Below, in pieces: positions 12,399 to 55,954 of a DNA stretch of 60,886 nt (positions within the stretch are counted from its first letter, which is position 1; every line of letters begins with the position of its first letter). The DNA lies in contig NZ_JAHESD010000030.1 in assembly GCF_018598585.1 (NCBI RefSeq), positions 1 through 60,886 of the forward strand, written 5' to 3'. Source of the stretch: Chryseosolibacter indicum. GTDB lineage: Bacteria; Bacteroidota; Bacteroidia; Cytophagales; Cyclobacteriaceae. The position numbers and the translations under genes were made by a program. A model generated the notes under the pieces. The model had not been told where the DNA came from and made no database searches. It saw only the letters and a program-made list of their open reading frames with translations.

Positions 12399-12425
12399 TT
12401 AACATATCGTTAAGATATTTTAATG
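12399..12425 (+). promoter_or_regulatory. 11-bp-spaced direct repeats (PhoB/PhoP-like box)
   Basis: TTAACA at 12399, TTAAGA at 12410 and TTAATG at 12420. The second unit begins 38 bp before the -7 box at 12448, the same geometry as upstream of 18328 and 21334. No -33 TTG is present at the expected spacing, as in activator-dependent promoters. Confidence 0.45.
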
Positions 12426-12447
12426 CGACCATATTAGTCTTATTTGA

Positions 12448-12455
12448 TACTTTTG
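12448..12455 (+). promoter_or_regulatory. dsbD-like gene promoter -7 element
   Basis: TACTTTTG, an exact TAnnTTTG. It implies a transcript start near 12462, upstream of the chosen ATG at 12486 and downstream of the alternative TTG at 12444. Confidence 0.6.
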
Positions 12456-12485
12456 GGGTTCTTAATGCACTTTTATAAAAAAATT

Positions 12486-14636
12486 ATGCGCTTACATTTG
12501 GTAAGATTAACACTGCTGGCTCTTATCTTATTGCCTGCCACGCTCTTCGGCCAGGTTCTTCAACCTGCAAAATGGACAACAGAGGTTTCAAAGACGAAAG
12601 TAAAGTCGGGGGATATTATAGAACTGATCTTTAAAGCAAAGATTGATGATAAATGGTATATGTATGCCAACGACTTTGATCCTGATTGTGGCCCTCTTTT
12701 AACAGAGCTTAGTTTTTCAGACGCTAAAAACTTTGAAGTAGTAGGTAAGACAATAGCGGTCAATCCATCGCCTAAACACGATGAGGTTTTCGACTGCGAT
12801 GTAAAAGTGTTCAAGAAAACAGCGGAGTTCAGGCAAAAAGTAAGAGTACTTGGCGGTACCTTGAAAATAGCAGGCTCTATTCAAGGGCAGGTTTGTACAG
12901 AGGTAGATGGAAAGTGCATTCCCTTTGAGGAAGAGTTTTCTTTTGATAACATAGAAGTGACAGGCGCACCAGCTCAGCAGTCACCGACAAAGCAACAATC
13001 AAACAATCTTAAAGATGAAAAGCCTGCCGCACAGGATCAGTCTTCATCAAACAATAAGAATAATAGCACTAATGCTGATACATTAAAAACTGCAGCAGCT
13101 GCAACCATGCAGGCTCCTTCAGCAACATCTGTAAAAAGTGAAAATAAAGGTCCCATTTTAGATCCAACAATTCTTCAGGGCGAAGCAGAACAACAAGATA
13201 GTTCTATTGCAGGTTATATGGTCCTTGCCTTTTTGCTTGGGCTTACATCATTGATAACACCGTGTGTTTTCCCAATGATCCCTATGACTGTAACCTTCTT
13301 TCTGAAAGATAACCAGTCGAAAAAAGAAGGTATACGTAACGCGATTATTTTCGGGGTCTCAATCATTGTAATCTATACAATAGCAGGTACGTTATTCGCT
13401 TTATTATTTGGCGCCGAAGGGTTAAATGCATTGGCTACGCATTGGTTGCCTAACCTTTTTGTATTCTTCATGTTCATTGTTTTCGCTTTGTCATTTCTTG
13501 GATTATTTGAAATCAATGCTCCGTATAAACTTGTTAACAAAGCCGATCGTGCGGCGGAAAAAGGAGGACTTGTTGGGGTGTTCTTTATGTCGGCAACACT
13601 TGTATTGGTTTCCTTTTCCTGTACTATCCCTATTGTAGGTAACGTGTTGGTACTTTCTGCGGGAGGCGAAGTTATAAAACCCGTTTTAGGGATGCTGGCT
13701 TACTCTGCTGCATTTGCTATTCCTTTTACATTGTTTGCCATATTTCCTGAATGGATGAAGAGCATGCCTAAATCCGGCGGCTGGCTTAACAGCGTAAAAG
13801 TAACCTTGGGTTTACTCGAGCTTGCACTCGCGTTGAAGTTCCTGAGCATCGTAGATCAGACTTACCATTGGGGTATACTCGACCGGGATGTAAACATTGC
13901 TATTTGGATAGTGATCTTCAGCTTACTTGGGCTCTATTTCCTCGGCAAAATCAGAACTTCAAGTGATACGGTGACCGATAAAGTGTCTGTGCCGAAGTTG
14001 ATGCTCGCCATTGTTACATTTTCATTTGTAGTCTACCTCATTCCGGGGTTATGCGGTGCTCCTTTAAAAGCGTTAGCAGGTTATCTCCCGCCTATGTATA
14101 CCCACGATTTCAATTTGTTGGAAGCTTCTAAAGATGATAAAGCAAACCAGTCGTGTGAGGAGCCAAAATATGGTGAATTCCTTCACCTGCCGCACGGTAT
14201 CAATGGTTATTTCGATTATGACCAGGCCCTGGCTTGCGCCCGCCAGCAAAATAAGCCCTTGTTTATAGACTTTACTGGCCACGGATGTACAAACTGTCGC
14301 GAAATGGAGGCTATTGTATGGTCAGATCCTGAAGTTCTGAAAAGGTTAAAAGAAGATTACGTGGTCGTTGCCCTTTATGTGGATGATAAAACTGAGCTGC
14401 CCGAACAGGAGTGGTATACCAGCAGGCACGATAATAGAGTAAAGAAAACTATAGGCAAGCAAAATGCGGATTTGCAGATAACAAACCTTAACAATAATGC
14501 TCAGCCATTTTATGTTTTGGTAGGAAAAGATGAGAGAGTACTTGCCTGGCCCAAAGCTTATGACAGAAGCATAGAAAATTTCAAAAATTTTCTAGATAGT
14601 GGCAAAAAAACTTACAATCAGTTATACGCTAACTAA
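12486..14636 (+). CDS. dsbD: Thiol:disulfide interchange protein DsbD
   Basis: A 716-residue inner-membrane reductase that moves electrons from cytoplasmic thioredoxin to periplasmic thiols. Domains in order: signal peptide (MRLHLVRLTLLALILLPATLFG), N-terminal nDsbD domain with a Cys pair (QVC...GKCIP), a Ser/Gln/Asn-rich linker (about 165-230), eight-helix CcdA-like core with the redox cysteines in TPCVFPMIP (about residue 258) and FSCTIPIVG, and a C-terminal thioredoxin domain with CTNC at about 601-604. All six redox cysteines appear present. ATG 12486 is preferred over ATG 12465 and TTG 12444 because it gives a clean signal peptide and lies after the -7 box. Confidence 0.94.
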   Translation: MRLHLVRLTLLALILLPATLFGQVLQPAKWTTEVSKTKVKSGDIIELIFKAKIDDKWYMYANDFDPDCGPLLTELSFSDAKNFEVVGKTIAVNPSPKHDEVFDCDVKVFKKTAEFRQKVRVLGGTLKIAGSIQGQVCTEVDGKCIPFEEEFSFDNIEVTGAPAQQSPTKQQSNNLKDEKPAAQDQSSSNNKNNSTNADTLKTAAAATMQAPSATSVKSENKGPILDPTILQGEAEQQDSSIAGYMVLAFLLGLTSLITPCVFPMIPMTVTFFLKDNQSKKEGIRNAIIFGVSIIVIYTIAGTLFALLFGAEGLNALATHWLPNLFVFFMFIVFALSFLGLFEINAPYKLVNKADRAAEKGGLVGVFFMSATLVLVSFSCTIPIVGNVLVLSAGGEVIKPVLGMLAYSAAFAIPFTLFAIFPEWMKSMPKSGGWLNSVKVTLGLLELALALKFLSIVDQTYHWGILDRDVNIAIWIVIFSLLGLYFLGKIRTSSDTVTDKVSVPKLMLAIVTFSFVVYLIPGLCGAPLKALAGYLPPMYTHDFNLLEASKDDKANQSCEEPKYGEFLHLPHGINGYFDYDQALACARQQNKPLFIDFTGHGCTNCREMEAIVWSDPEVLKRLKEDYVVVALYVDDKTELPEQEWYTSRHDNRVKKTIGKQNADLQITNLNNNAQPFYVLVGKDERVLAWPKAYDRSIENFKNFLDSGKKTYNQLYAN

Positions 14637-14736
14637 AGTTCAAAAAGCTTCCAAAGCGTTGAAATTTAGTGAATTCAAGCGGCTGTAGTTAATGTTTTTG
14701 TGTAAATACAATAACTTATATATTTGAAAATAAGCT

Positions 14737-14758
14737 AATTCCACACTTTTGTGGAATT
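14737..14758. repeat. Perfect inverted repeat overlapping the M23 promoter
   Basis: AATTCCACA, 4-nt spacer CTTT, TGTGGAATT. The right arm overlaps the -33 TTG of the next promoter. It could be an operator or a weak terminator hairpin for the dsbD gene; no T-run of standard length follows directly. Confidence 0.6.
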
Positions 14759-14786
14759 GGATATTTTTAGGACAGGGTTATCTTTG
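14757..14786 (+). promoter_or_regulatory. Promoter of the M23 endopeptidase gene
   Basis: TTG at 14757-14759, 19 bp, then TATCTTTG at 14779-14786 (exact TAnnTTTG). Leader of about 25 nt to the ATG at 14817. Confidence 0.75.
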
Positions 14787-14816
14787 TCACTCTCATTTTT
14801 TAAACTGCGCTAGAAC

Positions 14817-16118
14817 ATGGTAAAACGCTGGATCGGATTTCTTTTTCTTATCGCCATCACAGGTGGCGTCGTACTGCTCAAAAACTACTATCTGTCAACA
14901 AGTCCTAATCAGGAAACTTCACAGATTGACTCAACAACGTTAACGTTGGAATTACAACCTAAAGAACCTAAAGTGGTGTATGGTATGGTGCTGGATGAAC
15001 GCCAGGTGGTAATTGAGGACAAAATAAAAAGGAACCAGCGGCTTGGGGAAATTTTGGAACAATATAACGTTCCTGCTAAACTGATCAATCAGATCTCTAC
15101 CCTTTCACGTAAAGTCTTCGATCCGCGTAAAATTGCAGCAGATAAAAAATACACAGTTATTTATGAGCAAGACTCCTTAAAGAAAGCAAAAGCTTTGGTT
15201 TATGAGCCTAATGCTATTGACTATATCATCTTCAAATTCGATGACTCATTATCAGTAGATGTTCGCCAGCGCGAAGTTATAACTGTTGAAAAAACTGTTA
15301 CTGGTGTTATTAAATCAAACCTTTCTCAAACGATCCAGGAGTTAGGAATTACCAATGAACTTACAAACAAGTTTGTCGATATCTTCGGATGGCAGGTAGA
15401 CTTCCAGCGCTTACAAAAAGGTGATAAGTTCAAGCTTATTTACCACGAACAACAAGTAGAAGGAACCCCGGTAGGTGTTGGTCAAATTGATGCTATTTAC
15501 TTCGAACACTTTGGTGAAGATTATTACGCTTTCCCTTTTGACCAGGGTAATGGTATCGAGTACTTTGATGCTGAAGGTAAAAGCATGCGCAAGGCTTTCC
15601 TGAAGTACCCTATCGAGTTTACACGTATCAGCTCACGTTTTACCATGAACCGCTTTCACCCAGTTCAAAAGCGTTGGAAGGCACATCTTGGAACTGACTT
15701 CGCAGCACCAACGGGTACTCCTATTCGTACGGTAGGTGATGGTATTGTTCTCGAAGCACAGTATAAATCCAACAATGGTAACTATGTGAAGATTCGTCAT
15801 AATGCAACGTATACAACGCAATATCTTCACATGTCTAAAATTGCTGCAGGCATCAGACCCGGAACTCGTGTTCGTCAAGGTGAAACTATTGGTTATGTAG
15901 GTAGCACTGGCCTCGCTTCTGGTCCTCACCTTTGCTATCGTTTCTGGAAAAATGGTGTTCAGGTAGATGGTCTGCGCGCAGATTTACCTGCTTCAGAACC
16001 TGTTCGTAAAAATATGAGAGAGGCGTTTGAGGTAGTGAAACAAGAGCTTATGCAAAAGCTTAATACTATTCCAGCACCTCAGGAAGAAATTGAAAATGTT
16101 TTAGCTTCTGCTCAATAA
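14817..16118 (+). CDS. M23 family peptidoglycan endopeptidase
   Basis: A 433-residue membrane-anchored or secreted M23 (LytM-type) protein. Seen: an N-terminal hydrophobic segment (residues 5-26), a LysM/OapA-like central region (about 55-250), and the M23 domain at about 285-390 with HLGTDFA (zinc His and Asp) and the conserved GDGIV, NYVKIRH and YLHMSKI strands. The third zinc motif normally reads HxH, but here it is GPHLCYRFW, with Cys in place of the second His. The enzyme would cut peptidoglycan cross-links in the periplasm. Single-gene unit with its own promoter and terminator. Confidence 0.93.
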   Translation: MVKRWIGFLFLIAITGGVVLLKNYYLSTSPNQETSQIDSTTLTLELQPKEPKVVYGMVLDERQVVIEDKIKRNQRLGEILEQYNVPAKLINQISTLSRKVFDPRKIAADKKYTVIYEQDSLKKAKALVYEPNAIDYIIFKFDDSLSVDVRQREVITVEKTVTGVIKSNLSQTIQELGITNELTNKFVDIFGWQVDFQRLQKGDKFKLIYHEQQVEGTPVGVGQIDAIYFEHFGEDYYAFPFDQGNGIEYFDAEGKSMRKAFLKYPIEFTRISSRFTMNRFHPVQKRWKAHLGTDFAAPTGTPIRTVGDGIVLEAQYKSNNGNYVKIRHNATYTTQYLHMSKIAAGIRPGTRVRQGETIGYVGSTGLASGPHLCYRFWKNGVQVDGLRADLPASEPVRKNMREAFEVVKQELMQKLNTIPAPQEEIENVLASAQ

Positions 16119-16138
16119 GAAGTACTAACAATAACAAG

Positions 16139-16167
16139 AGACTGCCATAAATGGCAGTCTTTTTTTT
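16139..16167 (+). terminator. Rho-independent terminator after the M23 gene
   Basis: Perfect 9-bp stem AGACTGCCA/TGGCAGTCT, loop TAAA, eight T. Confidence 0.93.
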
Positions 16168-16169
16168 AT

Positions 16170-16856
16170 TTATACTCTTCTCTTTCTCCCTTCTATTCCG
16201 GGATATAGGCCAGGCACCGGATCGCTTATAAATACTTCTTTTGTGTCAATGTTCATCATTGATAATACCCCTGCCCAGCCTGCGCCGGTGTCCATCATCC
16301 ATACTTCCGATGATTTAATTGGGTGGTTATAAGTTATAGGTGTGTGACCTATATACACCTCTTCATAGCTTGAAAACTTACCATGAATACCCTTCTCATA
16401 TAAATCAATTGCTGTTCTCGCCAGGTTTCTATCCCACAGGAGAGTTTGTTGAGGTTGTACGTCAATGGGAATGTTAGGATTAAACCCTGCATGCACAAAC
16501 AACTTGTTGTCTTTCTCGTAATACAAATGAGAATTGTTGAGCAGTTTAATATGACTCTCCGGAATGCCATCTTTATAACTTTCGATGGTTGCCCGCCCGC
16601 CTTGCTCAACCCAGATATCCTCTCCTTCGGCGGTTTGCATCCATTCTAAAGTCCAGAAGTCATGGTTGCCGAATACGTAAACAAGGTTTTTAATCTTGAG
16701 GAGTTCATCAATACATTGCTTCGTCTCTGGCCAGCCATCGGCAACATCGCCAAGAAAAATAAGGGTATCGTCTTCATAAGAAAATGAGGCACGCTCTAAA
16801 CACTGCCGCAAAGCACGGTATGCGCCATGAATATCACCCAAAACAAAAGTAGCCAT
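16170..16856 (-). CDS. Metallophosphoesterase (PPP/ApaH-like)
   Basis: A 228-residue calcineurin-like phosphoesterase. Seen: the metal-binding motifs GDIHG (residues 7-11), GDVADG (GDxxDxG variant), GNHDFW, HAGFNP and GHTPI. These are the five signatures of the bacterial PPP phosphatase/ApaH group. Substrate unknown: protein Ser/Thr phosphate or a dinucleotide tetraphosphate are both possible. Cytoplasmic, no neighbours in an operon; convergent with the M23 gene and divergent from the MoxR gene. Confidence 0.88.
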   Translation of the reverse strand: MATFVLGDIHGAYRALRQCLERASFSYEDDTLIFLGDVADGWPETKQCIDELLKIKNLVYVFGNHDFWTLEWMQTAEGEDIWVEQGGRATIESYKDGIPESHIKLLNNSHLYYEKDNKLFVHAGFNPNIPIDVQPQQTLLWDRNLARTAIDLYEKGIHGKFSSYEEVYIGHTPITYNHPIKSSEVWMMDTGAGWAGVLSMMNIDTKEVFISDPVPGLYPGIEGRKRRV

Positions 16857-16887
16857 ACACTTGTATAGACAGGGGTATAACCGCTGT

Positions 16888-16929
16888 CTTTAAACATTAA
16901 ACATTCAACTTTTAACATTACTATTAAAA
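16888..16929. repeat. 7-bp degenerate tandem repeat, six units
   Basis: In-phase units CTTTAAA, CATTAAA, CATTCAA, CTTTTAA, CATTACT, ATTAAAA. Read on the minus strand they fit the NNTAATG pattern of the 8281-8364 array. It sits just upstream of the moxR -7 box. Confidence 0.6.
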
Positions 16930-16939
16930 AAGTAAAACA

Positions 16940-16947
16940 TACTTTTG
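16940..16947 (+). promoter_or_regulatory. Probable promoter -7 element of moxR
   Basis: TACTTTTG, exact TAnnTTTG, 66 bp before the start codon; no clear -33 element. Confidence 0.5.
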
Positions 16948-17013
16948 CCGCAGAAATATTTTTTGCAGGCATAAATCAATAAATCAGTTATTTTGGCGGT
17001 TTAATAATTAATT

Positions 17014-18000
17014 ATGGAAGCGGTAACTGTTGAAAAACATCAAGAGCATAAGGAAAAAATCAGACAGGTTATTTCTGAAGTAGGGAAGGTAGTTGTTGGA
17101 CAGGAATACATGGTTAACCGGCTTTTGGTAGGGTTATTTACCAATGGGCATATTTTACTGGAAGGCGTACCTGGCCTTGCAAAAACACTTACCATCAGCA
17201 CCCTTGCTAAAGTACTTCACCTCGATTTTCAACGGATACAATTTACTCCCGATCTTCTTCCGGCCGATCTGGTAGGAACGATGATCTACAATCAAAAAGA
17301 CGCAAAGTTTGAGGTTAAGAAAGGACCTATCTTCGCCAACATTATCCTTGCAGACGAGATAAACCGCTCTCCTGCCAAAGTACAATCTGCGCTGCTTGAA
17401 GCCATGCAGGAAAAAACTGTAACCATTGGCGAGACGACTTTCAAGCTTGATAAGCCATTCCTGGTAATGGCCACGCAAAACCCGGTTGACCAGGAGGGAA
17501 CGTACCCGCTACCTGAAGCCCAGGTCGATCGCTTTATGATGAAGGTCTACGTAAACTACCCTACCAAAGAACAGGAAATGGAAGTGATGCGCAGAATCTC
17601 CAACATGAAGTTTGACTACACAGTAAACCAGGTTTTGACAAAAGAAGATATCTTCGATATCCGTGAGCAGGTTAACAGGGTAAAGATCTCTGAATCACTT
17701 GAGAAATATATAATAGAGCTTGTGTATGCTACACGCAAGCCACTTGATTACAAACTCAATGATCTTGCACAATATTTACAATTTGGAGCCTCACCACGTG
17801 CGAGCATTAACATGAACCTTTCAAGCAAGGCTATTGCCTATATGGATGGACGGGATTATGTACTTCCGGAAGACATCAAAGAAGTGGCATTGGATGTGAT
17901 GAGCCACAGAATACTTCTGAACTACGAAGCAGAAGCAGATAATGTGAAACCTGCTGATATCGTAAAAACCATATTAACAAAGGTGCCTATTAATAAGTAA
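17014..18000 (+). CDS. MoxR family AAA+ ATPase (orphan copy)
   Basis: A 328-residue AAA+ ATPase of the MoxR group. Seen: Walker A GVPGLAKT (51-58), Walker B ILADEIN (111-117), sensor 1 MATQNP, arginine-finger region LPEAQVDRF and the lid sequence FGASPRASINM with sensor 2 Arg. MoxR proteins act as chaperones for VWA-domain partners, usually encoded next to DUF58 and VWA genes. This copy has no such neighbour: upstream is a phosphoesterase on the other strand and downstream a TonB receptor. The second MoxR copy at 51.7 kb sits in the usual cluster. A possible distant partner is the VWA membrane protein at 28-30 kb (inference). Confidence 0.93.
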   Translation: MEAVTVEKHQEHKEKIRQVISEVGKVVVGQEYMVNRLLVGLFTNGHILLEGVPGLAKTLTISTLAKVLHLDFQRIQFTPDLLPADLVGTMIYNQKDAKFEVKKGPIFANIILADEINRSPAKVQSALLEAMQEKTVTIGETTFKLDKPFLVMATQNPVDQEGTYPLPEAQVDRFMMKVYVNYPTKEQEMEVMRRISNMKFDYTVNQVLTKEDIFDIREQVNRVKISESLEKYIIELVYATRKPLDYKLNDLAQYLQFGASPRASINMNLSSKAIAYMDGRDYVLPEDIKEVALDVMSHRILLNYEAEADNVKPADIVKTILTKVPINK

Positions 18001-18259
18001 TAGGTACCAGTTCTTATCTCTTCATTCTCATTTTGCATTTCTGGCTTGGGCATTCCTTAAGATCATTTAAAGGAATCAAAAGGATATTTTGTTAAGAGGA
18101 GATAGGCTAGTAATCCTTTCTGTTATCGCCAGATTAAGCAGGTTAAAAAATCTTATAATTAATGTTAAGTCGAAATAGTGTGAAGTAGTTGATAATCACC
18201 ACAAAGAACTAAAACCTTCAAAATCAGATAAAAAACAACTGTTAGCCAGCCATTTCTAC

Positions 18260-18276
18260 TTAACAATTTGGTAACA
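18260..18276 (+). promoter_or_regulatory. 11-bp-spaced direct repeat (PhoB/PhoP-like box)
   Basis: TTAACA at 18260-18265, five bases, GTAACA at 18271-18276. The second unit starts 37 bp before the -7-like box GACCTTTG at 18308. Otherwise the 18001-18327 gap shows only a weak stem near 18050 and no gene. Confidence 0.45.
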
Positions 18277-18307
18277 CTCGCATACCTATGAGGTAATATT
18301 GGAGTAG

Positions 18308-18315
18308 GACCTTTG
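18308..18315 (+). promoter_or_regulatory. Probable -7 element of the TonB receptor gene
   Basis: GACCTTTG, one mismatch to TAnnTTTG, followed by GCA as in many promoters of this window. No TTG at -33 spacing. Confidence 0.4.
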
Positions 18316-18327
18316 CAGCAAATCAAA

Positions 18328-21147
18328 ATGATTATGTTTCAAAAAGTTCTTTCGTTTTTGCTACTGCTTGTATCCGCTTATACTTATGGACAGAATGGAA
18401 CAATTTCAGGTATTGTTACAGACGCCACAACAGGTGAGACGGTAATTGGTGCTAACGTTGTTATTCAAGGAACGACGGTAGGCGCATCTACAGATGTTGA
18501 AGGAAAATTTTCAATACCCAATGTAAAACCTGGTACTTACAATTTACAAGTGACATTTGTTACTTATAAAGCACATTTAATTCCTAATGTTCTGGTTGAA
18601 TCGGGTAAAATCACAAACATTCAGGTTCAGATGCAAGAAGATGTATCTGAGCTAGAGGAGGTAGTGGTAACGGGCACCAGAGAGATCAATAACGATTTTG
18701 CACTTCTTAAAGCAATTAAAGAAAGTAAGCTTGTAGTTAGTGGTATTTCTGCTGAACAAATATCAAGATCACAAGACAGAGATGCAGCTCAAGTTGTAAG
18801 AAGAGTACCCGGTATTACTTTGCAGGATAATAGGTTTGTAGTCGTCCGCGGCCTTTCATCTCGATACAGTAATGTTATGTTAAATGGAGTCTTAGCCCCT
18901 AGTACAGAAGCTGATTCGAGAGCATTTTCTTTTGATATTGTTCCAAGTGGCCTTTTAGACAGGATGTTGATTTACAAGTCTGGTGCAGCAGAATTGCCCG
19001 GTGATTTTGCTGGCTCGGTTATCCAGGTAAACACAAAGAGTGCGGTTGATCATAACTTTTTCAACGTTGCTTTAGGTACCGGATATAGGGTTAATACAAC
19101 ATTAACTTCAAGAAGTACTCAACAACGCTCCTCCACAGAATGGTTAGGTTTTGATAATGGAATGAGAGATATGCCAGATGGTGCTCCAGCTGATTATAGA
19201 AAATTGGGATTTAATGTATCAAAGATAGAAGCGGAAAGTAGAAAGTTTAAAAACACGTGGGGTCTTGAAGAGCTCAATGTTAAACCGGATGTTCGCTTTA
19301 ATATTGATTTAGGAAGAGCATTTAAAATAGGTCGTGTTTCTGTTAATTCTATTAATTCATTGAATTATAGTAATACTAATCAATACAATACGATTGAATT
19401 TAATAGGTATCAAAATTATACCGAAAACGGAAGTGGTGATTACACAAGCGCGGACATGTTTAGGTATAACGATGAACAATTTATAAACAACGTGCGTGTA
19501 GGACTCTTGAGTAATTGGACATTCAGATATAGCGATAAAAGTAGCATTGAATTCAAAAACCTATATAATAGATTAGGGACAACACAAACTACCATTCGCG
19601 AAGGTGACAACTTCTTCAGATCACAGCACTATCGAAACTATTCATTGAGATATATCGAAAGAAGTATTTACTCAGGTCAGCTCGAAGGAAATCATGAGCT
19701 TGTTACAGATAAGTCAAAAATTACTTGGTTGTTAGGTTATACTTCTGCAAAGAGAAATGAGCCTGATTGGAAAAGATTAGTAACCGCTCGTCCTCTAGGA
19801 TCTTCTGATGAGGTTGCATACTCTGTTGCTGTCCCGACATCTACCAGTCCATCAAACGCTGCACGCTTTTATCAAAACCTGAATGAATTTAATGCAACTA
19901 ATCGTCTGGATTTTGAATATTCATTCAATGAAAGGGAGGGGAAAGATCCGTTTGAATTGAAGACAGGTTATTGGTTAGAATATAAAGAAAGGAATTTTGA
20001 TGCCCGTCAGATAGGACACGTGGCAAGAGACGGCTTTAATCCTGAGATTGCATCCTTGCCTTATAATCAAATCTTCTCTACCAACAACGTCTCTTATAAT
20101 GGTGGTCATTTTATATCCGAAAACACCAACGTCACTGATTCATACGAAGCAAGTAATGTTCTTACAGCTGGATATGCAAGTTTAAACATGCCGCTGACTT
20201 CAAAAATCAGAGTAATACCTGGAATAAGAGTTGAACATAATATTCAAAAGTTAGAAACTGCAGAAGGTGTAGGATCTGCTAAAGTCAATAATCCTGTTAC
20301 AAGTATACTACCCTTCCTAAATATTTCTTATAATTTAAATACTACCTCATTATTGCGGTTAGCTTACAGCAAGACAGTAAACCGTCCTGAGTTTCGCGAA
20401 TTAGCTCCATTTACTTTCTACGATTTTGACAATCAATCTGATGTACTAGGCAATCCCAAGCTAAAAATTGCAAATATCCACAATGTCGATCTTCGTTATG
20501 AATACTATCCTACACCTAATGAATTTATTTCAGCCGGTCTTTTCTATAAGTATTTCAAAAATCCGATTGAAACGAACATCGATAACGGAACAGATAATCC
20601 AGTATTCTTATTTAATAATGCTGACAATGCACAAAACTATGGTGTTGAGGTAGAGATACGTAAATCTTTAGCTTACACTTCATCAAGCCATCTTCTTAAC
20701 CATACATCTGTTGTCTTTAATGCAAGTTATATTTTCAGTACAATCAACTTGTTAAATGATGGGCAACTAATGGAAAAAGATTCAAGGCCAATGCAGGGGC
20801 AGTCTCCTTATATCATTAATGCAGGATTGTTCTATAACGATGAAGACAATGGCTTACAAGCAAATATTCAATATAATATATTTGGGAAACGCATCGCATT
20901 TGTTGGTTTATTAGGACAACCAACATGGTGGGAAATGCCTAGAAATGTTATTGACATTACCATTTCAAAAACAATTAGTAAAAGGACTGACTTACGATTA
21001 GGGATAAGTGATCTTTTAAACTCGAAATCTTATATAAGAGAAGATGCAAACCTTGACAACGATGTGAGCAATTCCAATACTAACAAAATTGTTCGAAGCA
21101 CAAGAAGTGGTCAATACATTACACTAGGAGTTGCAGTGAAGTTATAA
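18328..21147 (+). CDS. TonB-dependent receptor with carboxypeptidase-like domain
   Basis: A 939-residue outer-membrane receptor. Order: signal peptide (to about residue 22, TYGQ), a CarboxypepD_reg-like beta-sandwich (GTISGIVTDATTGETVIGANV, about 23-110), the plug domain (VVRRVPGITLQDNRFVVVRGLSSRYSNV... PGDFAGSVIQVNTK) and a 22-strand barrel ending in YITLGVAVKL. There is no SusD partner, so it is not a classical polysaccharide locus. It is followed by a terminator and a lipoprotein gene with the same promoter architecture, which suggests the two proteins form a receptor pair. ATG 18334 is an alternative start; TTG 18313 lies inside the -7 box. Substrate not determinable. Confidence 0.93.
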   Translation: MIMFQKVLSFLLLLVSAYTYGQNGTISGIVTDATTGETVIGANVVIQGTTVGASTDVEGKFSIPNVKPGTYNLQVTFVTYKAHLIPNVLVESGKITNIQVQMQEDVSELEEVVVTGTREINNDFALLKAIKESKLVVSGISAEQISRSQDRDAAQVVRRVPGITLQDNRFVVVRGLSSRYSNVMLNGVLAPSTEADSRAFSFDIVPSGLLDRMLIYKSGAAELPGDFAGSVIQVNTKSAVDHNFFNVALGTGYRVNTTLTSRSTQQRSSTEWLGFDNGMRDMPDGAPADYRKLGFNVSKIEAESRKFKNTWGLEELNVKPDVRFNIDLGRAFKIGRVSVNSINSLNYSNTNQYNTIEFNRYQNYTENGSGDYTSADMFRYNDEQFINNVRVGLLSNWTFRYSDKSSIEFKNLYNRLGTTQTTIREGDNFFRSQHYRNYSLRYIERSIYSGQLEGNHELVTDKSKITWLLGYTSAKRNEPDWKRLVTARPLGSSDEVAYSVAVPTSTSPSNAARFYQNLNEFNATNRLDFEYSFNEREGKDPFELKTGYWLEYKERNFDARQIGHVARDGFNPEIASLPYNQIFSTNNVSYNGGHFISENTNVTDSYEASNVLTAGYASLNMPLTSKIRVIPGIRVEHNIQKLETAEGVGSAKVNNPVTSILPFLNISYNLNTTSLLRLAYSKTVNRPEFRELAPFTFYDFDNQSDVLGNPKLKIANIHNVDLRYEYYPTPNEFISAGLFYKYFKNPIETNIDNGTDNPVFLFNNADNAQNYGVEVEIRKSLAYTSSSHLLNHTSVVFNASYIFSTINLLNDGQLMEKDSRPMQGQSPYIINAGLFYNDEDNGLQANIQYNIFGKRIAFVGLLGQPTWWEMPRNVIDITISKTISKRTDLRLGISDLLNSKSYIREDANLDNDVSNSNTNKIVRSTRSGQYITLGVAVKL

Positions 21148-21172
21148 TTCTTGTTTTTAAAAAACTTAAAAG

Positions 21173-21212
21173 TCCATAGGGGAAGAGTATCATTTTCCTT
21201 ATGGATTTTTTT
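21173..21212 (+). terminator. Rho-independent terminator after the TonB receptor gene
   Basis: A 12-bp stem with two G-U pairs (21173-21184 with 21194-21205) followed by seven T. Confidence 0.85.
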
Positions 21213-21232
21213 ATTATCTAAAAATGAAATTC

Positions 21233-21271
21233 ATAACATTGGGTTAATGAATTGTTAATGTGATAGTAAAT
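21233..21271 (+). promoter_or_regulatory. Four direct repeats with 11-bp period (PhoB/PhoP-like box)
   Basis: ATAACA at 21233, TTAATG at 21244, TTAATG at 21255, GTAAAT at 21266, each separated by five bases. The third unit begins 37 bp before the -7 box at 21292. It is the most complete of three such sites in the window. Confidence 0.55.
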
Positions 21272-21291
21272 GCCTTTAATAATAATCGACC

Positions 21292-21299
21292 TAATTTTG
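21292..21299 (+). promoter_or_regulatory. -7 element of the lipoprotein gene
   Basis: TAATTTTG, exact TAnnTTTG, about 35 bp before the start codon. No TTG at -33 spacing. Confidence 0.6.
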
Positions 21300-21333: not shown

Positions 21334-22728
21334 ATGAAAAAGATGAGCAAATTACTCGCATTTTTTATAGCACTAACTTCAATTTTTGCTATGCAGAGCT
21401 GCGACGACGACGACGATGATTCACAACCACAAGGTAATGATGAATTAACTGTTCTCGAAGGAAATATCACCGCAGATATGACTTTAAGTGCAGATGAAAA
21501 ATATTTAATACGTGGTAAAGTTTATGTTAATGCTCCCGCTAAACTTACAATTCCTGCAGGTACAATTCTGTTTGGCGAAAAAGATAGTGATGGTGCATTA
21601 ATTATTAACCGAGGTGCAATGATTGAAGCTAAAGGAACAGCCGACAAGCCTGTTATCATGACTTCCCAAGCCCCAGTCGGTTTCCGTAATCGTGGTGATT
21701 GGGGTGGTTTAATTATCCTTGGTAAAGCATATAATAGCAATGGTGCATCTGCTACTATTGAAGGTGTGAGTGCCTCTGCTGGATCTGAAAATGGTGTATA
21801 TGGCCCAGGTTCTGGCAATGCAAATGATGCAGATAATTCTGGTACTTTACAATATGTGAGAATTGAGTATGCAGGTATAGCATTGTCGCAAGACAACGAG
21901 TTGAACAGTCTCACCATGGGATCTGTAGGTTCAGCAACAACAATAGACCACATTATGGTGTCATATGCAAATGATGACGCTTATGAATGGTTTGGTGGAT
22001 CAGTGAACCATAAATATCTTATAGCTTATTCTACTAACGACGACGACTTCGATACAGATAAAGGCTATAATGGTAAAGTGCAATTTGGTTTAGTAGTACG
22101 TGACAATGGAGTAGCTGATTTTTCAGGATCAAGAGCATGGGAATCTTCTAGTAACACTACTTCTCCTGTGCCTACTGTGGGAGGAATATCAAGACATTCT
22201 GCTCCTGTTTTTTCCAATGTTACTGTATTAGGACCAAGATTATTTGGAACTAGCATTGATACCGATTATAAATCCGCTGTAGAGATAAACCAAAGCTCAG
22301 CTATTAAAATACATAATTCAATTATTACTGGTTTTGCTACTACAGCTACTTTTGGTAATGAAGGGGCACTAGTTACAGGTAACGTATTCTCGGCGGCAGG
22401 AAACAATAATGTGGCTGATGGAGCTTCTGCGCCTATCTCTTTTGCAACAGATAACGCAATAGAAGGTACTGTAACCAATATTTTTGGACCCTATACTGCT
22501 AAGAGCGCTTCTAACCAAGCCAATAACAACGTTTACTCACATTCTGGCTTGCCTGCATCTGCTTATCAGGTAGGTACTAGTCCTTATTTGACTGGCGCAA
22601 TAAATTTAAGTGCTGATCCATTCTTCCAAAATGTAGCATATAAAGGTGCTTTTGGAACAAGTGCAGATGCTGGATGGAACATAACTTCACCATGGGTTAA
22701 TTTTGATCCAAACAGCGCAACTTATTAA
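21334..22728 (+). CDS. Surface lipoprotein, parallel beta-helix-like
   Basis: A 464-residue lipoprotein (lipobox AMQSC, Cys23, followed by a run of six Asp, which is typical for surface-exposed Bacteroidota lipoproteins). The body repeats short strands such as LTIPAGTILFG, ALIINRGAMIEAKGTADKPVIMTS and GDWGGLIILGKA, the pattern of a right-handed parallel beta-helix family found in this phylum with TonB receptors. Asp and Asn are abundant (DDDFDTDKGYNG), which could bind cations. It is the likely partner of the upstream TonB receptor: same strand, 186 bp gap, same promoter layout. Family members are sometimes labelled multidrug transporter, which the sequence does not support. ATG 21334 is followed by MSKL at 21343 as an alternative. 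Confidence 0.85.
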   Translation: MKKMSKLLAFFIALTSIFAMQSCDDDDDDSQPQGNDELTVLEGNITADMTLSADEKYLIRGKVYVNAPAKLTIPAGTILFGEKDSDGALIINRGAMIEAKGTADKPVIMTSQAPVGFRNRGDWGGLIILGKAYNSNGASATIEGVSASAGSENGVYGPGSGNANDADNSGTLQYVRIEYAGIALSQDNELNSLTMGSVGSATTIDHIMVSYANDDAYEWFGGSVNHKYLIAYSTNDDDFDTDKGYNGKVQFGLVVRDNGVADFSGSRAWESSSNTTSPVPTVGGISRHSAPVFSNVTVLGPRLFGTSIDTDYKSAVEINQSSAIKIHNSIITGFATTATFGNEGALVTGNVFSAAGNNNVADGASAPISFATDNAIEGTVTNIFGPYTAKSASNQANNNVYSHSGLPASAYQVGTSPYLTGAINLSADPFFQNVAYKGAFGTSADAGWNITSPWVNFDPNSATY

Positions 22729-22779: not shown

Positions 22780-22804
22780 ATTTTTGAATAACCATCATGT
22801 TAAA

Positions 22805-23413
22805 ATGAGAACATCGTTGATTTTCATAGCGCTTATGTGCTCACTATTACTGTCTTGTAATAATTCTTTTGATGCAAAAGACAACTTAACTAATGAGGAG
22901 TATGAAGAAGTACTAATGAAAGTTGCCCCTTATGTCATAAAAAAATCAGATGACTTTTCATATGAAGACCGGTTTAAACCTGAAAATGCTAGTTACTACC
23001 AAAGATTCATAGAGAAATCAAAAGGTGAGCTGAAGTATTTTAAAAAAACGGATACTGCTTCAATATTCTTCTTCAGTTACAAAGATTTGTCAAGTTTGTA
23101 TGAGCATTATCAAGGGCTTGGCGGATACTACCGCACAGATGATAAAGGAAAGATAACTTTCTTAAACATTCTTTACCATACACCGCGTTTTACTAAGGAG
23201 GAACAACGCGAAAAGGACCAAATTCTGTTCGAAGAAATGGTCAGCAAAGGCAATGTTAATGCTTATATTGGAAATAGGAAATTTATTCACACACCTAATA
23301 AGGATTTCTACTACAACACAAAACTCAACAAATGGGATTACACTCCTAACTCTTCGTGGAAATTTTTGAATGAAGCAAAACAAGAAGCATTGAAGGCTGA
23401 TAGCGTGAAGTAA
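22805..23413 (+). CDS. Hypothetical lipoprotein
   Basis: A 202-residue lipoprotein of unknown function. Seen: lipoprotein signal MRTSLIFIALMCSLLLSC with Cys18, then a charged, aromatic-rich mature domain (EYEEVLMKVAPYVIKKSDDFSYEDRF, YYRTDDKGKITFLNILYHTPRFTKEE). No known motif. It follows the beta-helix lipoprotein directly after a terminator, so it may be read through at low level or have its own promoter. A longer frame from TTG 22784 is rejected because it starts in the terminator tail. It may be part of the TonB/lipoprotein locus, but this is only proximity. Confidence 0.75.
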   Translation: MRTSLIFIALMCSLLLSCNNSFDAKDNLTNEEYEEVLMKVAPYVIKKSDDFSYEDRFKPENASYYQRFIEKSKGELKYFKKTDTASIFFFSYKDLSSLYEHYQGLGGYYRTDDKGKITFLNILYHTPRFTKEEQREKDQILFEEMVSKGNVNAYIGNRKFIHTPNKDFYYNTKLNKWDYTPNSSWKFLNEAKQEALKADSVK

Positions 23414-54078: not shown

Positions 54079-55773
54079 TCAAATGTTCTGTTTCTTCATC
54101 TCATTTATAGCGTGGGCGCATGCCCTAGCCGTTATAGCCATGTAGGTAAGAGAAGGGTTAACACAACTTGAAGATGTCATAAAAGAGCCGTCGGTAATAA
54201 AGACGTTCTTTACTTCATGCATCTGGTTATACGAATTTACAACAGAGTTCTCCGGATCTTTTCCCATTCTTGCTGTTCCCATTTCGTGGTTTGCATTTCC
54301 AGGATATGCAGTGTTAACGTATGGCTTTACATTTTTATATCCGAGCTCTTCAAGAAACTCAGCGGTGCCATTGGCCATGTCTTGCTGCATTGCTTTTTCA
54401 TTGTCCTTAAACTCACAGTTTATGGACAATGTATTTCGTCCCCACTTATCTTTTACATTTGTGTTCAGAGTTACACGGTTGTCATGGTAAGGAAGACATT
54501 CACCAAAGCCACCAAAGTTAATAGACCACGGCCCTGGTGTTTGTACAGCAGACTTCAGGTCTGCACCTATTTTATCGCTTACTATCTGCGAACGCCATCC
54601 AGCTCTGCTGGCGCCACCCATTAATCCATAGCCTCTCAGGTAATCTTTATTCTTTTTATTTACATTAATAAATCGTGGAATGTAAAGCGTATTTGGTCTT
54701 CTGCCTGAATAATATTTATCCTCGAAACCTTCTACTGATGCAGAGGCTCCGGAATTTTTATGGTGGTCCATTAAGTTTCTTCCTACCTGATCGCTACCGT
54801 TGCCCAGGCCATTTGGAAATCTGTTTGAAACAGAATTTAAAAGAATGAATGTTGTGCCTAATGTTGAAGCATTCAGGAAAATGATCTTCGCGTAATATTC
54901 AGTTATTTCATTTGTCTCTGTATTTAAAACCTCTACGCCTGTTGCCCGTTCTTTCTGCTCGTCATACAATACCCTGTTTACTAACATCCCTGATAATAAT
55001 TCGAGGTTTTTAGTAGCATGCGCTGCGGGTAGTGTACTTGCGTTTGTGCTGAAGTAAGCGCCATACGGGCATCCGCGATGACAGAGATTTCGCGCCTGGC
55101 ATTGGCCGCGGCCCTTTACAGGTTGTGTAAGATTTGCGACCCTGCCGATTGTGACCCTTCTATCAGGATATTTCTTTTCGAATTTTACTTTGAAGTCCTG
55201 CTCAACACAATTCATCTCCATCGGTGGGAGAAAATGTCCGTCTGGTAGGTGGGCGAGTCCTTCCGTCTGACCACTTACACCAATAAACTTCTCGACATAA
55301 TCGTACCAAGGGGCAAGATCTTTATAGCGGATAGGCCAATCTATTCCGTGTCCATCTTTAATGTTTGCTTCGAAGTCAAGGTCGCTAAACCGGTAGCAAT
55401 GTCGGCTCCATAACAACGATCTTCCGCCTACAACATCGGCCCTTATCCAATCGAATCGCTTGATTTCAGTGTAGGGATTTTCAAGATCATTAATAAAAAA
55501 GTGCTTGTTCTCGCTCTGAAAAGTCCAATGCCTGTTTTGTACAAACGAAATGCGCTTTTCTTCTTCTGTTAGTCTGTTTCGATGCGGGAAGTCCCACGGA
55601 TCATTCGTTGCTGTTGGGTATTGAGGATGGTTTACCGGTTTCCCTCTTTCCAGCATAAGTACTTTTAATCCGCTTTCGCACAGTTCCTTTGCCGCCCAGC
55701 CACCGCTTATTCCGGACCCGACAACAATGGCATCATAAGTCCTGGCTTCCTTAGATTTGGAAATTAGATTCAT
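54079..55773 (-). CDS. GMC family oxidoreductase
   Basis: A 564-residue flavoprotein. Seen: the FAD motif AIVVGSGISGGWAAKELCESGLKVLMLERG near the N terminus, WSRHCYRF, the Cys-rich GRGQCQARNLCHRGCPYGAYFSTNAS, and the C-terminal GMC block NHEMGTARMG and SSCVNPSLTYMAITARAC with the catalytic His and Asn. Related to gluconate 2-dehydrogenase and sugar or alcohol dehydrogenases that pair with a subunit 3 protein; no such neighbour is present here, so it is an orphan. ATG 55773 preferred over GTG 55782. Confidence 0.92.
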   Translation of the reverse strand: MNLISKSKEARTYDAIVVGSGISGGWAAKELCESGLKVLMLERGKPVNHPQYPTATNDPWDFPHRNRLTEEEKRISFVQNRHWTFQSENKHFFINDLENPYTEIKRFDWIRADVVGGRSLLWSRHCYRFSDLDFEANIKDGHGIDWPIRYKDLAPWYDYVEKFIGVSGQTEGLAHLPDGHFLPPMEMNCVEQDFKVKFEKKYPDRRVTIGRVANLTQPVKGRGQCQARNLCHRGCPYGAYFSTNASTLPAAHATKNLELLSGMLVNRVLYDEQKERATGVEVLNTETNEITEYYAKIIFLNASTLGTTFILLNSVSNRFPNGLGNGSDQVGRNLMDHHKNSGASASVEGFEDKYYSGRRPNTLYIPRFINVNKKNKDYLRGYGLMGGASRAGWRSQIVSDKIGADLKSAVQTPGPWSINFGGFGECLPYHDNRVTLNTNVKDKWGRNTLSINCEFKDNEKAMQQDMANGTAEFLEELGYKNVKPYVNTAYPGNANHEMGTARMGKDPENSVVNSYNQMHEVKNVFITDGSFMTSSSCVNPSLTYMAITARACAHAINEMKKQNI

Positions 55774-55954
55774 CGAAAACACTTCTATTAACTTCTAAGT
55801 ATCAAAAAATTGTTAATAACACAAAGAGGTTTTTTTCAATCGGTTTCGAACTTTTTTAGTGGTAAAAATTGTATGAATTCAAGCTCATACAAGGAACATT
55901 AAAATTTCCCATAAAAAATATGAGTAATTGTGCTGATAGAAAGACTCGCTGATT

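Follow-up and report, generated by a model that had tools for sequence, protein, structure and literature searches.

Probable Pho boxes with an 11-bp period upstream of a TonB-dependent receptor gene and a lipoprotein gene in Chryseosolibacter indicum and other Bacteroidota

PhoB systems normally rely on the Pst-PhoU sensing unit, and pstS is the textbook Pho target under phosphate starvation. The PhoP box of Bacillus subtilis is a TTAACA-type hexamer, and the promoters of Bacteroidota are of the TAnnTTTG type. The 60,886-nucleotide stretch of Chryseosolibacter indicum DNA analysed here (contig NZ_JAHESD010000030.1, called the window as a whole) belongs to a 5.8-Mb genome in 183 contigs. It contains direct repeats of TTAACA-like hexamers with a period of 11 base pairs (bp) in front of a DsbD-like gene, a TonB-dependent receptor gene, and a lipoprotein gene. 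The repeats of the receptor and the lipoprotein are very probably Bacteroidota Pho boxes that are read by a PhoB-like regulator under phosphate starvation.

Escherichia coli PhoB binds head to tail on tandem 11-nucleotide (nt) direct repeats (PMC4415409), and the E. coli Pho box lies 10 bp upstream of the -10 box (PMC1906773). The repeats in the window share the 11-bp tandem arrangement, and a gap of 9 bp separates their last hexamer from the -7 box. These repeats differ in the hexamer, which is (T/G)TAA(C/T)A and not the CTGTCAT core, and in a promoter of the Bacteroidota type. The Pho box of cyanobacterial SphR is likewise made of TTAA-containing 11-bp units (CTTAACCT, 8 bp and a 3-bp linker), but SphR and Bacillus PhoP boxes belong to other phyla with other sigma factors. 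Within Bacteroidota, Riemerella anatipestifer PhoP is similar in its TTTAACA core, autoregulation, and binding at a TonB receptor (PMC9603813), whereas the passages of that study used here contain no 11-bp period, -7 register, or link to phosphate genes. Bacteroides fragilis PhoB is described as binding the pstC promoter in vitro, and the text of that study mentions neither a consensus nor a binding site (PMC3547664).

Flavobacterium johnsoniae PUSIV (phoBR, Tbdt, FII) has a receptor followed by a lipoprotein as in the window, and this order occurs beside phoB-like genes in flavobacteria. In contrast, the pair in the window stands apart from the phoB-like gene of this genome, which is on contig C102. 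The PhoB-Tbdt-FII arrangement is reported to be strongly induced by phosphate depletion in F. johnsoniae, with Fjoh_0545/0546 beside phoB; the transcriptome data for Fjoh_0543 to Fjoh_0546 give the receptor and the lipoprotein fold changes of 8.0 and 9.9 (PMC8115612). The link between the window and these induced genes is made by synteny in other flavobacteria. The main text of PMC8115612 mentions no Pho box or motif, and a search of the open-licence literature found no Bacteroidota Pho-box consensus with a period and a promoter register. The Pho box as a kind is already known, and the consensus and register for this phylum appear to be new. Consensus, spacing, and register together give a searchable phosphate-starvation operator, by which the phosphate regulons of Bacteroidota become predictable from sequence.

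The receptor gene (18328..21147, plus strand) matches Pfam PF00593 and has flavobacterial homologues that adjoin phoB. Its promoter has the layout TTAACA-N5-GTAACA-N16-GTAATA-N9-GACCTTTG. The first unit, TTAACA (18260..18265, plus strand), starts 48 bp before the -7 box and is kept in the same-genus orthologues L092 and L105, and the second, GTAACA (18271..18276, plus strand), starts 37 bp before it, which is phase 4 modulo 11. A further unit, GTAATA (18293..18298, plus strand), was overlooked by the sequence-only reading that drew attention to these promoters. It is in phase with the others (offsets 0, 11, and 33 bp), lies 15 bp before the -7 box, and occupies the place of the -33 element; 15 bp is also the commonest unit distance across homologous promoters. 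The -7 box (18308..18315, plus strand) is an imperfect TAnnTTTG, so the full box assumed earlier is not present there, but its GACCTTTGCAGCAAAT is kept in both same-genus orthologues.

The lipoprotein gene (21334..22728, plus strand) is assigned by synteny to the FI/FII/FIII kind, which is low-phosphate-inducible and pectin-lyase-like, as it has the same position as FII beside phoB; Pfam and NCBIfam searches with it gave no match. Before it lies a four-unit 11-bp array (21233..21271, no strand assigned), with plus-strand unit starts 59, 48, 37, and 26 bp before the -7 box TAATTTTG (21292..21299, plus strand; 26 bp past the start of the last unit). The sequence-only reading had placed repeats at 12399, 18260, and 21233-21271, with units 38, 37, and 37 bp before boxes at 12448, 18308, and 21292, and these positions and distances are correct. 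The absence of a TTG at the usual -33 spacing in all three promoters was also confirmed by eye.

Taken singly, the best pair at the three sites, on either strand, was equalled in 11, 12, and 20 of 2000 dinucleotide shuffles, which is suggestive of a signal above chance and no more. With a slightly looser unit, four intergenic places in the window have at least 11 of 12 matches, and the three sites are among them. Across 529 generic promoter regions from 1.26 Mb of the genome, spacing 11 was unremarkable (35 places with at least 10 matches versus 19-40 at other spacings), and this rules out that the repeat is simply a common trait of AT-rich promoters. Homologues in other genomes were therefore examined. 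For each upstream region, the best TTAACA pair at every spacing from 7 to 23 was scored against an expectation from shuffles, and pairs with at least 10 of 12 matches were counted as good.

At the level of the order, homologues of the lipoprotein occur in 55 of 59 genomes, and the receptor is also present in 19 of the 40 stretches fetched around such homologues. With the window included, 10 of 19 receptor regions have at least 10 of 12 matches at spacing 11 (1.2 expected), and 7 of 19 have at least 11 of 12 (0.1 expected). The lipoprotein regions give 12/32 at spacing 11 (2.3 expected) and 12/32 at spacing 22 (1.6 expected), and every other spacing gives at most 5 in either set. One receptor and eight lipoprotein regions were dropped (short, below 45-60 nt, or without an open reading frame (ORF) or match).

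The phylum set consists of the best 80 of at least 581 loci from a lipoprotein-alignment scan of named genomes, and includes Cyclobacteriaceae, Flavobacterium, Pedobacter, Chitinophaga, Hymenobacter, Parabacteroides, and others. In 60 of these loci, the gene directly upstream of the lipoprotein gene is that of the receptor. At spacing 11, good pairs occur in 40/67 receptor regions (3.2 expected; 25 with at least 11 matches, 0.2 expected) and in 30/43 lipoprotein regions (2.5 expected; 10 with at least 11 matches, 0.3 expected). Spacings besides 11 and 22 give at most 12 receptor and 7 lipoprotein regions, and 13 receptor and 37 lipoprotein regions were dropped as short or without an ORF or match. 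Among the 60 distinct permutations of its letters, TTAACA ranks first, with 11 of 12 matches at spacing 11 in 35/110 regions; the runner-up, TAACAT (22/110), is a shifted frame of TTAACA. The repeats are conserved upstream of receptor and lipoprotein homologues far above the shuffled expectation, and judged by sequence comparison this conservation is the decisive evidence that they are real.

The register was measured as the distance from each (T/G)TAA(C/T)A unit to the last -7 box. Unit distances pile up at 15, 26, 37, 48, 59, and 70 bp. With a strict TAnnTTTG, present in 68 of 159 regions, 80 of 111 units are in phase 4 of 11 (about 10 expected), and with a relaxed box, any NNNNTTTG near the start codon (123 regions), the count is 128 of 176 (about 16 expected). 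L396, which is the same as L097, is counted in both sets and was removed when near-identical regions were thinned, after which 79/108 strict and 127/172 relaxed units remain in phase 4. The receptor units (15, 37, and 48 bp) and lipoprotein units (26, 37, 48, and 59 bp) of the window are all in this phase. The fixed distance to the -7 box that was proposed from the window thus holds for the receptor and the lipoprotein across the phylum, whereas the DsbD-like promoter is one base off. A minor second peak of unit distances, at 68 and 79 bp (phase 2 of 11), suggests that some promoters have a second upstream array with a phase of its own.

The enrichment at pst genes that the sequence-only reading had proposed as a check was found at pstS of other Bacteroidia. 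In a sample of 30 of the 58 matches listed over the cut-off (in 53 of 198 genomes; two regions dropped), a pair at spacing 11 is found in 16 of 28 upstream regions (1.5 expected; other spacings reach no more than 6), and 15 of 28 have at least 11 matches (0.1 expected). Fifteen regions have a -7-like TTTG, and 13 of their 16 units are in phase 4. At the receptor, lipoprotein, and pstS promoters, the direct repeats with an 11-bp period thus keep a fixed helical register roughly 10 bp ahead of the -10/-7 box, in the position of the upstream promoter element. Regulator genes also adjoin the receptor-lipoprotein group: in 5 of the 80 loci (L343, L359, L369, L376, and L409) these are 50-55% identical to the C102 regulator. 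The PhoB-like gene is divergent beside the receptor in Flavobacterium L359 and L369 and in L376 and L409, and just downstream of the group in Schleiferia L343. Six further loci have regulators at 33-38% identity and were excluded from the count. Among the phoB-like promoters of relatives, 7 of 27 regions contain an 11-bp pair (1.0 expected; 3 of 30 dropped as short or without an ORF or match), in line with autoregulation, and five of them (L272 to L276) share TTAAGGAATTGTTAA, whose complement is TTAACAATTCCTTAA.

In this genome, a row of FecR, TonB receptor, lipoprotein-like protein, and phytase genes (Pfam) carries a five-unit 11-bp array, which covers the end of an ORF resembling a sigma-factor gene (by eye) as well as the gap ahead of fecR. 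The receptor, the lipoprotein, and the phytase row are linked to starvation-induced groups by homology and synteny only, and the DsbD-like gene showed no such link. On the same contig as the phytase row, a reverse-oriented pair lies 217 bp before a SusC-SusD-phosphodiesterase-like row.

The Pho-box reading is based directly on the repeats, their spacing, phase, and conservation, on pstS of other Bacteroidia, and on phoB-like synteny. With phosphate starvation as the presumed signal, a PhoB-like response regulator of the OmpR family, probably that of C102, would bind head to tail on the 11-bp repeats (T/G)TAA(C/T)A. The repeats leave about 9 bp to the -7 box, in a promoter region that lacks the -33 TTG. 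By analogy with E. coli PhoB, the regulator would replace the -33 contact and hold primary-sigma RNA polymerase at the -7 box, the predicted effect being activation. The receptor and the lipoprotein would then capture phosphorus compounds at the outer membrane.

Several results weigh against this reading. The C102 regulator scores under the curated PhoB cut-offs (232 of 296 bits and 224 of 270), and Fjoh_0545 is listed with barrel pf14905 while the window receptor matches PF00593. The array at 21233 fits TTAACA better on the minus strand (19/24; units TTACTA/TTAACA/TTAACC/TTATGA) than on the plus strand (16/24). Control genes of the same 80 loci are also slightly enriched, with at least 10 matches at spacing 11 in 22/234 regions versus 4-16 at other spacings and 14/37 of their units in phase 4; this control is not clean because some of the genes look phosphate-related (metallophosphoesterase-like and porin-like, by eye). 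At the phoB-like promoters, spacing 19 is nearly equal (6/27). PhoX-family upstream regions are modest (7/25, 1.3 expected, 4 at the next best spacing; 4 of 29 dropped and L191 excluded beforehand), and among the phytase upstream regions only 1 of 12 has a good pair at spacing 11 and 3 at spacing 10 (5 of 17 dropped, four with 1 to 25 nt upstream and one without an ORF; L219 and L220 excluded beforehand). A search for the full architecture with a strict -7 box, covering 22% of the genome, gave 3 boxes versus 1-7 at other registers; its rule also passes over the receptor promoter, whose -7 box is imperfect. The three-unit pattern exceeds its reversed control modestly genome-wide (466 versus 384, at most three mismatches).

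The 22% sample gave no sign of a genome-wide class of such promoters. The two-unit pattern is only slightly over its reversed control genome-wide (1364 versus 1204, at most two mismatches), and with the lack of excess of the full architecture this leaves a large regulon unsupported. The regulon seems to be a small one. The 53 places that fit the three-unit pattern with at most two mismatches include both the lipoprotein and the phytase array.

The DsbD-like gene (12465..14636, plus strand; Pfam) encodes a thiol:disulfide interchange protein and is preceded by a TTAACA-N5-TTAAGA pair (12399..12415, plus strand) with units 49 and 38 bp upstream of the -7-like box TACTTTTG (12448..12455, plus strand). 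At spacing 11, good pairs occur in 5 of 25 DsbD upstream regions (0.7 expected; at most 3 at other spacings; 4 of 29 dropped and L246, with an internal stop, excluded beforehand). The regions with at least 11 of 12 matches are exactly the three members of the genus searched, in which the pair aligns and the remaining upstream DNA aligns poorly by eye. In the three-genome alignment, GTTATTTTAG of L243 lies opposite TACTTTTG with a shift of one base, and the string also occurs in L245 and L247. The -7 box assignment is plausible because of this alignment. Comparison of these upstream regions points to a real, lineage-specific element outside the standard register.

The idea of one regulon with PhoB-type boxes for all three genes is supported for the receptor and the lipoprotein, by phasing, conservation, pstS, phoB synteny, and the phytase array, and weakly for the DsbD-like gene, whose repeat, among the regions compared, is confined to the three genus members searched and is off register. 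The DsbD-like gene may tentatively be placed in the regulon in this genus alone, with disulfide reduction recruited to phosphate starvation, or its repeat may serve another regulator. The conserved pair in otherwise poorly aligning DNA is in favour of such a genus-specific role. In contrast, none of the 22 regions from other genera reaches 11 of 12 matches (two reach 10), and the distances of 38 and 49 bp are in phase 5.

It is improbable that the repeats at the receptor and the lipoprotein instead serve another OmpR-family regulator as operators, one without phosphate specificity, like Riemerella PhoP with its ArcA-like in vitro motif around TTTAACA. This genome has 11 OmpR-type DNA-binding domains, and in Riemerella a motif whose most conserved letters are TTTAACA was reported around 579 of 583 peaks from DNA affinity purification sequencing, with binding in electrophoretic mobility shift assays at TonB receptor, moxR, and phoPR promoters among others (PMC9603813). 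Against such a regulator, the element has an identical register at pstS promoters, an array precedes the phytase row, and Riemerella PhoP may itself be of the same protein family as the PhoB-like regulator. Chance TTAA strings from AT-rich intergenic DNA can practically be dismissed for these two genes: isolated sites of such quality do occur, as 0.5 to 1% of shuffles equal a single site and generic promoters have no 11-bp peak, but conservation in homologues, one spacing, one phase, and one hexamer among the permutations rule this out.

The top NCBIfam matches of the C102 pair are PhoB and PnpS/PhoR, below cut-off, and the C102 regulator is matched at E < 1e-80 in 54 of 59 genomes. Searches for PhoU and PstC gave no match in this genome, with PstA and PstB left out of the search, and a single PHO4-type permease is present. 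The sole PstS-like match (C121, below cut-off) adjoins TonB/ExbD-like ORFs (by eye), and its locus has no convincing box on inspection; on these grounds it was set aside as a pst operon. Plant-associated Bacteroidetes are reported to lack PstSABC (PMC8115612). As no PhoU or PstC match was found, PhoR probably senses phosphate here by a route other than Pst-PhoU. On balance, the results favour a phylum-wide Bacteroidota operator of (T/G)TAA(C/T)A repeats placed 15+11n bp before the -7 box, which would work here without Pst-PhoU, with PhoR reading phosphate otherwise, and with TonB receptors and lipoproteins as the main outputs. The question of how PhoR detects phosphate where a genome lacks Pst and PhoU thereby becomes testable.

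A second PhoB-like regulator gene occurs at L090:7840-10514 (C150), clustered with a PlcP-like phosphoesterase gene and a short glycosyltransferase-like ORF (by eye). The regulator is 45% identical to that of C102 and has no neighbouring kinase, the locus resembles a lipid-remodelling locus, and a weak pair lies 216 bp upstream of the phosphoesterase gene.

The closest lipoprotein homologues from named genomes, among the matches listed, are from Cyclobacteriaceae and Flammeovirgaceae metagenome-assembled genomes. A small lipoprotein-like gene (22784..23413, plus strand; by eye) is the third of the receptor-lipoprotein group, and an ORF resembling it in size and N-terminus (by eye, unaligned) follows the pair in L331, L343, L350, L359, L369, and L376. 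A MoxR-type ATPase gene (17014-18000) precedes the receptor, and a similar ORF lies before the receptor in L350 (by eye); moxR is among the PhoP-bound promoters described in Riemerella (PMC9603813). The fourth intergenic pair of the window, TTAACA-N5-TTGATA (55800-55816, minus strand), lies before a 567-amino-acid ORF (54079-55782, minus strand).

Elsewhere in the genome, a tandem array of ATAACCCGTAG with an 11-bp period (G000:C33:88806-88865), with similar strings in L442, is probably an unrelated repeat. Two mismatch-free TTAACA-N5-TTAACA pairs lie at L072:10004-10061 (C160), between a DUF1573-like gene (by eye) and a histidine kinase/response regulator pair. Of all 11-bp arrays in the genome, the best (L073:9991-10029; C100:62591-62629) has four TTAAC units and zero mismatches to the three-unit pattern, and lies about 400 bp upstream of a 686-amino-acid ORF.

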